DNA from: Bacteroidales bacterium
GTDB taxonomy: Bacteria > Bacteroidota > Bacteroidia > Bacteroidales > JAADJA01
Reading direction: 5' to 3'
NCBI GenBank assembly: GCA_020438105.1
Contig: JAGQVE010000017.1
Coordinates: forward strand, 1 to 64,000
Length of the DNA: 64,000 nucleotides
Shown here: piece by piece, positions 42,430 through 43,708 of the stretch
Numbering within the stretch: position 1 is the first letter of the stretch
Layout of the letters: each line of letters begins with the position of its first letter
Made by a program: the position numbers and the translations under genes
The notes under the pieces: model-generated
Told to the model about the DNA's origin: nothing
Databases searched by the model: none
The model's input: only the letters and a program-made list of their open reading frames with translations

Positions 42430-42505
42430 GGGCCTTTAGCTCATCCCGATAGTTTTGGGAGGTTGAGCACCTAGCTCTCCCGAAAGTTTTCGGGACAGGT
42501 GACCC
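42430..42505 (+). pseudogene. tRNA-derived copy A with palindromes in D and anticodon loops
   Basis: GGGCCTTTAGCTCA (42430-42443) matches the 5' end of the intact tRNA at 42627. Then a degenerate palindrome TCCCGATAGTTTTGGGA (42444-42460) takes the place of the D-loop GTT, GGTTGAGCACCTAGCTC follows, then TCCCGAAAGTTTTCGGGA (42478-42495) takes the place of the anticodon-loop bases, then CAGGTGACCC. The T arm and 3' acceptor strand are missing. The D stem (GCTC/GAGC) and most of the anticodon stem (CACCT/AGGTG) are kept. Not a working tRNA. Confidence 0.9.
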
Positions 42506-42527
42506 GAACAGAAAACAATAAATTAAT

Positions 42528-42605
42528 GGGCCTATAGCTCATCCCGATGGTTATCGGGAGGTTAGAGCACCTGACTCTCCCGAAAGCTTTCGGGACAGGT
42601 GGTCC
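42528..42605 (+). pseudogene. tRNA-derived copy B with palindromes in D and anticodon loops
   Basis: GGGCCTATAGCTCA (42528-42541) is identical to the intact tRNA. TCCCGATGGTTATCGGGA (42542-42559) replaces the D-loop GTT, GGTTAGAGCACCTGACTC follows, TCCCGAAAGCTTTCGGGA (42578-42595) replaces ATAAT of the anticodon loop, then CAGGTGGTCC. The T arm and the normal acceptor 3' strand are absent, but GGGCC (42528-42532) can pair with GGTCC (42601-42605), closing a two-armed fold with a 4-bp D stem and a 6-bp CACCTG/CAGGTG stem. It is 98 nt from copy A, 99 nt from the intact gene, and preceded by the same AAATTAAT word. Confidence 0.92.
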
Positions 42606-42626
42606 AGAAGAAGTTATTAAATTAAT

Positions 42627-42700
42627 GGGCCTATAGCTCAGTTGGTTAGAGCACCTGACTCATAATCAGGTGGTCCCAGGTTCAAGTCCTGGTGGGCCCA
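42627..42700 (+). tRNA. tRNA with CAU anticodon (Met or Ile2)
   Basis: 74-nt cloverleaf: acceptor GGGCCTA/TGGGCCC, D arm, anticodon stem CCTGA/TCAGG with loop CTCATAA (anticodon CAU), T arm CCAGG/CCTGG with TTCAAGT, discriminator A, no encoded CCA. It resembles E. coli elongator-Met and lysidine-modified Ile2 genes; the TTCAAG T loop and the overall match with ileX lean to Ile2(CAU), but the identity cannot be settled by eye. Confidence 0.97.
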
Positions 42701-42708
42701 CTACAGAG

Positions 42709-42735
42709 AAGGGTTGATATTCAACCCTTTTTTTT
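42709..42735 (+). terminator. intrinsic terminator of the CAU tRNA
   Basis: AAGGGTTGA (42709-42717), loop TAT, TCAACCCTT (42721-42729), followed by a T run. It lies only 12 nt before the GIY-YIG start codon. A second copy is present at 43131. Confidence 0.92.
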
Positions 42736-42746
42736 ATTTTTAAACC

Positions 42747-43043
42747 ATGAAAGCCTGTTGTTACATTCTTTTTAGCGAAAAGCTTGGGAAGTTCTACATT
42801 GGTGCTACTCAGGATAATCTTGACAATAGGATCCGAAAACATAATTTGCACCTATATGGAAGCCATCGGTTTACTGCTGTATCTAACGATTGGAAACTTT
42901 TCATTTCTATTCCTGCAACTGACTTTGCTCATGCTGTTAGAATTGAACGTTATATCAAATCTCAAAAAAGCAGTAAATACATCAGAAACTTGAAGGTTTA
43001 TCCGGAATTAATCGACAAAATAATCGAAAAATCGAGCACCTGA
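42747..43043 (+). CDS. GIY-YIG nuclease-domain protein (UPF0213-like)
   Basis: 98 aa, a single GIY-YIG domain: CYILFSEKLGKFYIGAT (the YIL...YIG strands), RIRKHN with the catalytic Arg, and RIERYIKSQKSSKYI with the Glu region. Single-domain UPF0213 proteins are common in Bacteroidota; substrates are mostly unknown, though homing nucleases use the same core. The start lies 12 nt after the tRNA terminator with no visible ribosome-binding site. The last codons (S-S-T-stop) are read from the tRNA remnant that follows, so the gene end was set by junction with tRNA sequence. Confidence 0.9.
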   Translation: MKACCYILFSEKLGKFYIGATQDNLDNRIRKHNLHLYGSHRFTAVSNDWKLFISIPATDFAHAVRIERYIKSQKSSKYIRNLKVYPELIDKIIEKSST

Positions 43044-43122
43044 CTCTCCCGTCATGATAACTATCGGGATCGGGACAGGTGGTCCCAGGTTCAATCCCGA
43101 TAGCTATCGGGAGGTGGGCCCA
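43034..43122 (+). pseudogene. tRNA-derived remnant C, with palindromes in anticodon and T loops
   Basis: GAGCACCTGACTC (43034-43046) matches the intact tRNA from the end of the D arm. A 29-nt stretch, TCCCG...CGGGA with a further TATCGGGA inside (43047-43075), sits in the anticodon loop. CAGGTGGTCCCAGGTTCA follows, TCCCGATAGCTATCGGGA (43095-43112) sits in the T loop, then GGTGGGCCCA, the tRNA 3' end. The 5' half of the tRNA is absent and the start overlaps the last codons of the GIY-YIG gene. Not a working tRNA. Confidence 0.9.
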
Positions 43123-43130
43123 CAACAGAG

Positions 43131-43156
43131 AAGGGTTGGTATTCAACCCTTTTTTT
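43131..43156 (+). terminator. second copy of the tRNA terminator
   Basis: AAGGGTTG, loop GTATT, CAACCCTT, then a T run: the same hairpin as at 42709, following remnant C at a similar distance. The flanking ACAGAG is also shared. Confidence 0.85.
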
Positions 43157-43167
43157 ATTTTTAGATC

Positions 43168-43387: not shown

Positions 43388-43708
43388 ATGTTTAATAACC
43401 AGGGAGTCGAAATAGAAATCTTTATTATTGGGATTATTATCTACTTATTTTTAGTGATAACGGTCGCCAAATTAGGCACATACAAAAAATGTGGCGGATT
43501 TAAGGCTTTTATTATAAGTCTGCTCCTATCACCTATTATCGGAATTTTATACGTTTCCGTATCCCCGGTGAAATCTGTATTAAAAATTGTTCATTATCGT
43601 TGTCATCATTGCGGACTTGAATTTACGACTAGTCATAAATATTGTCCTACATGCCTAAAAGATGGAGAAAAACATCATTTGGAGCGAATAAGCATGCGGA
43701 CCTACTAA
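43388..43708 (+). CDS. small two-TM protein with C-terminal zinc ribbon
   Basis: 106 aa. Two hydrophobic segments (about 9-30, IFIIGIIIYLFLVITVAKLG, and 38-58, AFIISLLLSPIIGILYVSVSP) are followed by a short linker and a zinc-ribbon-like RCHHCGLEF...HKYCPTCLKD with two CxxC pairs. The combination is common in small uncharacterised Bacteroidota membrane proteins. Stand-alone gene; function unknown. Confidence 0.8.
   Translation: MFNNQGVEIEIFIIGIIIYLFLVITVAKLGTYKKCGGFKAFIISLLLSPIIGILYVSVSPVKSVLKIVHYRCHHCGLEFTTSHKYCPTCLKDGEKHHLERISMRTY

Follow-up and report, generated by a model that had tools for sequence, protein, structure and literature searches.

A GIY-YIG nuclease gene, broken tRNA copies and a recurrent 18-nt palindrome in Bacteroidota: what looks like an undescribed family of tRNA-gene parasites

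Islands that encode a tyrosine integrase integrate in tRNA genes, restore the tRNA and leave a displaced tRNA fragment behind. The Seg proteins of phage T4 are freestanding GIY-YIG homing endonucleases, of which SegB is encoded in the T4 tRNA region, and I-TevI is their intron-borne relative. SLX1 and YhbQ-UPF0213 are structure-specific GIY-YIG nucleases; SLX1 acts on branched DNA together with a partner protein. Tiny hairpin elements are known as well, among them the small dispersed repeats (SDR5) of cyanobacteria. REP/REPIN sequences, which accompany RAYT transposases, are short palindromes found beside a single-domain nuclease/transposase gene and dispersed in the same genomes (PMC3116915), and the GC clusters, double-hairpin elements and repetitive hairpin-forming elements of mitochondria are tiny and gene-less (PMC2800124). 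Here we describe a tRNA locus of a Bacteroidales bacterium whose parts resemble freestanding GIY-YIG homing genes, REP-RAYT systems and the tiny hairpin elements of cyanobacteria and mitochondria, and which no single one of these systems fits.

The locus lies in a window of 64,000 nucleotides, the whole stretch of DNA that was analysed, and has the following features.

42430..42505, + strand: dead 5′ tRNA copy A (sequence reading, repeat analysis, palindrome count)
42444-42460, + strand: D-loop insert of copy A, 17 nt (sequence reading)
42478-42495, + strand: anticodon-loop palindrome of copy A, 18 nt (sequence reading)
42528..42605, + strand: dead 5′ tRNA copy B (sequence reading, repeat analysis, palindrome count)
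42542-42559, + strand: D-loop palindrome of copy B, in place of GTT
42578-42595, + strand: anticodon-loop palindrome of copy B, in place of ATAAT
42627..42701, + strand: intact tRNA-Met/Ile2 (CAU) (ARAGORN; Rfam RF00005, 76.2 bits)
42704..42736, + strand: terminator-like hairpin 3′ of the intact tRNA, a near-copy of which recurs after copy C (direct and inverted repeats)
42747..43043, + strand: GIY-YIG nuclease gene, 98 aa (PF01541, E 2.4e-12)
43034..43122, + strand: dead 3′ tRNA copy C (sequence reading, repeat analysis)
43047-43075, + strand: nested palindrome in the anticodon loop of copy C (palindrome within palindrome)
43095-43112, + strand: T-loop palindrome of copy C, TCCCGATAGCTATCGGGA, in place of GTCCT
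43128..43160, + strand: second copy of the terminator hairpin, after copy C (repeat analysis)

The initial annotation had described copies A and B as tandem 5′ tRNA copies in which the D-loop GTT and the anticodon-loop ATAAT are exchanged for palindromes, and sequence reading, repeats and ARAGORN bear this out. Specifically, the D-loop junction of copy B reads AGCTCA, then the insert TCCCGATGGTTATCGGGA standing for GTT, then GGTTAGAGC; at its anticodon loop, CTGACTC is followed by the insert TCCCGAAAGCTTTCGGGA, standing for ATAAT, and by CAGG. Sequence comparison identified the remainder of copy B as the 5′ part of the intact CAU tRNA. Copy A contains both of these inserts, the first as an imperfect 17-nt form (TCCCGATAGTTTTGGGA). 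The pairing GGGCC/GGTCC, put forward earlier as a new closing stem of copy B, consists of native tRNA letters from the acceptor 5′ strand and the variable loop, and therefore offers no evidence of a designed fold. Copies A, B and C did not reach the Rfam RF00005 gathering cut-off, the only matches being the intact tRNA and a tRNA-Ser. Overlooked at that stage were the GIY-YIG gene, copy C with its two palindromes and the duplicated terminator; the TGA stop codon of the GIY-YIG gene is at the same time the TGA of the copy C anticodon stem. On the minus strand, an ORF at 42666-42851 ending in GPPGLEPGTT is spurious, being tRNA antisense, a common annotation artefact.

TCCCGA-N6-TCGGGA, with at most one mismatch, occurs four times in the window, always within 42478-43112, compared with 0.10 expected; none of 100 shuffled sequences reached four. 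Even scatter of such palindromes over the genome would have spoken against targeting, and the distribution is uneven: the whole 4.3-Mb genome has only 16 TCCCGA-N4..8-TCGGGA sites (two for the reversed control), of which six are tRNA-derived (four at the window locus, one beside tRNA-Pro, in a dead copy whose D loop holds a different palindrome, and one beside tRNA-Gln). One further site lies in RNase P RNA, and the others are nested in one another or in tandem repeats.

Three side observations concern related palindromes. A dead tRNA-Pro copy next to an intact tRNA-Pro (L008, G000:C32 near 64869) holds a different palindrome, CCGCCAATGGGCGG, in its D loop and TCCCGACCGAAGCGTCGGGA in its anticodon arm; other palindrome families therefore use the same sites. 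A dead tRNA-Met copy (L063, G056:C61) has a long palindrome, CCCGCCCGTAC...GTCGGGCGGG, between D stem and anticodon arm; an intact tRNA and the beginning of a GIY-YIG gene follow downstream. At L001, L006 and L028 the 18-nt palindrome is part of a longer repeat, TATGGAA-palindrome-(C)GTGATAAAAGCTGTTG, which is common to several species and is perhaps another mobile repeat.

The 98-aa protein has the domain and the catalytic Tyr, Arg and Glu that define the GIY-YIG superfamily, and residues Y6, Y17, G19, R28 and E67 were invariant in 33 sequences. Its AlphaFold2 model has a pLDDT of 95. The best sequence and fold matches, though weak, were to SLX1-type, YhbQ-UPF0213 and I-TevI GIY-YIG domains; unlike the window nuclease, SLX1 and YhbQ-UPF0213 are not known to be linked to tRNA genes. 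A separate DNA-binding domain could not be accommodated in a protein of this size; this fits, without proving it, a predicted recognition of DNA structure. NCBIfam contains no family for this nuclease.

A profile scan with the nuclease alignment, which was not conditioned on palindromes and whose seed was drawn from tRNA-linked genes, identified 80 loci in named Bacteroidota, 71 of them untruncated; 65 of the 71 had a tRNA within 700 bp on the same strand and none on the opposite strand, and 62 had a palindrome within 250 bp. The neighbouring tRNAs are Met/Ile2, Asn, Leu or Phe. Palindromes numbered 101 in 39 kb near GIY-YIG genes versus seven in 196 kb farther out. The same tRNA is represented by a partial copy beyond the nuclease gene, namely its 5′ part where the order is GIY-tRNA and the 3′ part where it is tRNA-GIY. 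The copies are thus found in many species rather than in this assembly alone, and an assembly artefact was ruled out, as dozens of assemblies made independently, isolate genomes among them, show this architecture. Some dead 5′ copies have no GIY-YIG gene nearby (L051, L052). Elsewhere (L090 at G231:C13:73724-75331, L126, L138) we observed tandem arrays of 395-407-bp units of GIY-YIG gene plus dead tRNA, or of dead 5′ tRNA copies, which suggest repeated entry or unequal exchange.

The nuclease clades track tRNA identity (16 label changes, shuffled mean 41.6) and also palindrome site (13 changes among 36 tRNA-GIY loci, with 18-23 in the ten shuffles printed). The Leu clade spans Sphingobacteriaceae, Flavobacteriaceae and Chitinophagaceae; target-specific clades spread over host lineages in this way are a mark of homing elements. 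Beside the inserts, dead copies and intact tRNA disagree at only 2% of positions, although divergence among the nucleases is much greater, at about 40-59% identity with that of the window.

Homing elements are also recognised by empty and filled alleles of one target locus, and these are present within the genus of the window. The orthologous tRNA locus is empty in L097, L100 and L105; it is filled in L099, L101, L102, L103 and the window, the filled relatives having a GIY-YIG gene and split tRNA halves there. Compared with empty L100, the native leader of L101 enters the old tRNA as far as TGACTCATAATCAAGT; the insert then runs through a complete tRNA, a terminator and the GIY-YIG gene, after which come TGACTCATAATCAAGT again, the old 3′ half and native downstream sequence. 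Compared with empty L105, the insert of L102 comprises terminator, GIY-YIG gene and palindrome, and native downstream sequence follows the old 3′ end. In the aligned pairs, native upstream and downstream sequence thus border the insert, and we conclude that an element bringing a replacement tRNA part split the old gene, the split pieces being those that carry palindromes. The nucleases at the locus orthologous to that of the window are only ~40% alike and belong to different clades, so the locus has been entered more than once. A 106-aa zinc-ribbon-like ORF downstream of the tRNA locus (43388-43708 in the window) is found in empty and filled relatives alike (L098, L100, L105) and marks the native downstream neighbour.

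These elements share with T4 Seg genes a small GIY-YIG gene adjoining its target gene (here a putative one), linkage to tRNA, target-specific clades, and empty and filled alleles. Unlike the T4 genes, they are cellular and phylum-wide, their protein has the size of a catalytic domain and lacks a separate DNA-binding domain, and they carry a replacement tRNA part and leave palindrome-bearing dead halves. As with tyrosine-integrase islands, the tRNA is restored and a displaced fragment remains. In contrast to the islands, the element is about 0.4 kb long and has no integrase, and its fragments are 5′ or 3′ and palindrome-broken.

The palindrome, (Y)CCCGATAGCTATCGGG(R), occupies set positions in the D, anticodon, variable or T loop of the dead copy, where it stands for 3 or 5 nt. 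Break points fall at tRNA index 15-17, 36-40, 46-50, 54-56 or 60-62 (Asn, Met, Leu and Phe tRNAs), and the letters replaced are mostly GTT, GTC or AAT (3 nt) or GGTCC or ATAAT (5 nt). Twenty-one distinct 18-mers vary by matched changes on both sides: the outer pair is T-A or C-G, the second C-G, T-A or G-C, and the seventh T-A or A-T. A search for the D-loop junction pattern at order level, with the reversed pattern as control, gave 21 sites in 10 of 393 genomes (control, 0). Where AGCTCA^TCCCGA forms a direct junction, the locus is the dead 5′ copy of a tRNA (Val, Ala, Asn, Met, Lys and others). Almost all of these loci immediately precede an intact tRNA, and one comprises six 53-bp copies in tandem; L047 and L065 are cut off by contig ends. 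True T-arm cases adjoin a GIY-YIG gene. T-arm pattern matches outside tRNA were discarded as tRNA sites, being mostly ordinary dispersed palindromes. Carriage by phages was likewise set aside, as the D-loop junction pattern had no match in IMG/VR. Local quasi-palindrome correction (hairpin templating) was rejected because different loci share one insert, whose sequence does not come from the flanking stem. A CNNNG cut motif of the I-TevI type, judged by eye at the junctions, fits the D-loop site and neither the anticodon nor the variable sites, and was dropped.

Dispersed palindromes reach 56 copies per genome. The richest genome sampled (G429, with 56 copies) has only three nuclease matches. 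Some of the dispersed copies lie within terminator hairpins (L214, L223, L258), some in an RNase P RNA that is otherwise standard, at its P12 loop and a second peripheral loop, and some are nested in copies of the palindrome itself. The RNase P RNA genes concerned (L223:49-487 and L004:1965-2390), with palindromes at the P12 apex and in other peripheral loops, still score well above the Rfam cut-off. In a flank-swap test, the flanks paired more than expected in two independent sets (P 1e-4 and 1e-3), also after removal of nested copies (P 5e-5). The bias to hairpin loops is real and not exclusive: about one site in five is surrounded by a clear hairpin, and about 80% of dispersed palindromes are not. 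In three different 9-nt tandem arrays the insert took the place of exactly 3 nt, the same number as in the D and T loops. The earlier idea of a mobile mini-palindrome aimed at tRNA loops is therefore upheld in part. The same palindrome does recur at fixed loop sites of dead tRNA copies throughout the phylum, and elsewhere it favours loops, whether in terminators, in RNase P RNA or in hairpins of its own; tRNA loops are not its sole target, and the tRNA context is explained by the GIY-YIG element.

We propose, with a probability of roughly 0.6, that the locus harbours a tRNA-gene-invading GIY-YIG element of the homing-endonuclease sort, which supplies a replacement tRNA and leaves palindrome-broken halves, and that a mobile mini-element coupled to it, the palindrome, is aimed at loops. 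A minimal GIY-YIG gene would enter a tRNA gene together with a terminator and a replacement for the displaced tRNA part (or a whole tRNA), which would keep a working tRNA. As the empty and filled sites show, the old gene persists as a dead 5′ and/or 3′ piece beyond the nuclease gene, and in such pieces one conserved 18-nt palindrome has taken the place of 3 or 5 nt at fixed loop positions. The nuclease would break tRNA genes and the element be copied in by recombination, for which the near-perfect tRNA pieces may serve as portable homology arms. The palindrome could mark or destroy the cut region and interrupt the repeats, so that the dead piece escapes re-cutting or recombination. It may itself be a mobile mini-element, swapping about 3 nt at hairpin loops and neutral repeats, and, like REPs with RAYT, may travel with the GIY-YIG nuclease or depend on it. 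Of the copies in the window, A and B would be older dead 5′ remnants, and the current insertion would have left C as its dead 3′ piece. The dead piece is palindrome-broken, and the intact tRNA copy of a filled locus retains the presumed target sequence; self-cutting must therefore be tolerated or avoided somehow. How the intact copy escapes its own nuclease is the largest puzzle. Tandem GIY arrays (L090, L126, L124, L141) suggest re-entry, in which case it may not always have escaped, or could be plain duplications.

A bolder version, which we offer tentatively, is that the 18-nt perfect palindrome is itself transposable and is moved by the putative stand-alone, structure-recognising nuclease, which would open hairpin loops (in tRNA genes, terminators, RNase P RNA and its own copies) with replacement of 3 or 5 nt, while tRNA genes, broken and then provided with a replacement tRNA, would be the nuclease gene's own route of spread. 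It is unlikely, by comparison, that the palindrome is a mobile repeat in its own right, spread by some other enzyme (e.g. a Y1/RAYT transposase) or by replication slippage, that it gathers in dead tRNA pieces only because it aims at hairpin loops and does no harm there, and that its link to GIY-YIG is incidental. Palindromes do occur in terminators, RNase P RNA, tandem repeats and each other, far from any GIY-YIG gene, and each of the 21 genomes of the order that bear the palindrome also has Y1_Tnp. However, within the same loci palindromes are about 70 times as dense beside GIY-YIG genes as elsewhere, and palindrome site tracks GIY clade. In an order-level sample of 60 genomes, the palindrome occurred in 21 of the 33 with a GIY-YIG match and in none of the 27 without one; outside the genus of the window, the association held for GIY-YIG (7 of 16 versus 0 of 27, P 3.6e-4), compared with P 0.13 for Y1_Tnp. 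In the phylum sample all eight other genomes with at least two palindromes were GIY-positive, as were 59 of the 109 remaining (P about 0.01), a weak association, given how common GIY-YIG genes are in the phylum (68 of 118 genomes). Nor does the layout match REP/REPIN-RAYT. The palindromes do cluster at a single-domain enzyme gene and disperse through the same genomes, but that enzyme is GIY-YIG rather than a Y1 HUH transposase (Y1_Tnp lies elsewhere in the genomes), they lie within dead tRNA copies, and most sites hold a single 18-nt perfect palindrome without the GTAG tag or the inverted doublet of a REPIN.

Palindromes that are immobile and locally selected, as 18-nt hairpins keeping a dead half from pairing with the intact tRNA, from tRNA processing or from recombination with the intact copy, strike us as improbable. 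They are confined to dead pieces, none being found in an intact tRNA at the loci examined, they split the repeat into stretches of mostly 10-37 bp, and matched changes preserve the hairpin. Against such selection, a single sequence serves five sites and four types of tRNA throughout a phylum, uninterrupted stretches of 52-69 bp survive in some dead pieces (L152, L166, L170), and the same palindrome occurs in unrelated hairpins and replaces 3 nt in tandem repeats. The other possibility raised by the initial annotation, that the copies with their longer arms are transcribed as a family of functional, structured tRNA-like small RNAs, is hardly credible: although the stems beside the loops are retained and tandem copies lie upstream of several tRNAs, the part retained is 5′ in one arrangement and 3′ in the other, the ends vary with no conserved tRNA-like fold, presence is scattered with empty sister loci, and Rfam gave no tRNA-like match in the copies.

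With the cyanobacterial SDR5 and mitochondrial hairpin elements the palindrome has in common that it is tiny and gene-less, inserts in RNase P RNA, tRNA or intergenic hairpins, and nests. It differs from them in sequence and hosts (the SDRs being set apart by description) and in its tie to a nuclease gene and to fixed tRNA loop sites. The openly accessible literature, including searches on small dispersed repeats, yielded no description of the palindrome sequence or of the combination of GIY-YIG gene, tRNA and palindrome. We thus appear to be dealing with an undescribed family of tRNA-gene parasites travelling with a tiny mobile palindrome. It explains the small GIY-YIG genes and the many truncated tRNA copies found next to tRNAs in Bacteroidota, and cautions annotators against false tRNA fragments. 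It also joins two things usually handled apart, a homing-type nuclease in cellular tRNA genes throughout a phylum and a tiny dispersed palindrome. No settled account exists of how gene-less palindromes such as REP, SDR and mitochondrial hairpin elements spread, and the replacement of 3 nt by 18 nt at fixed loop sites provides a sharp, testable signature of such spread.
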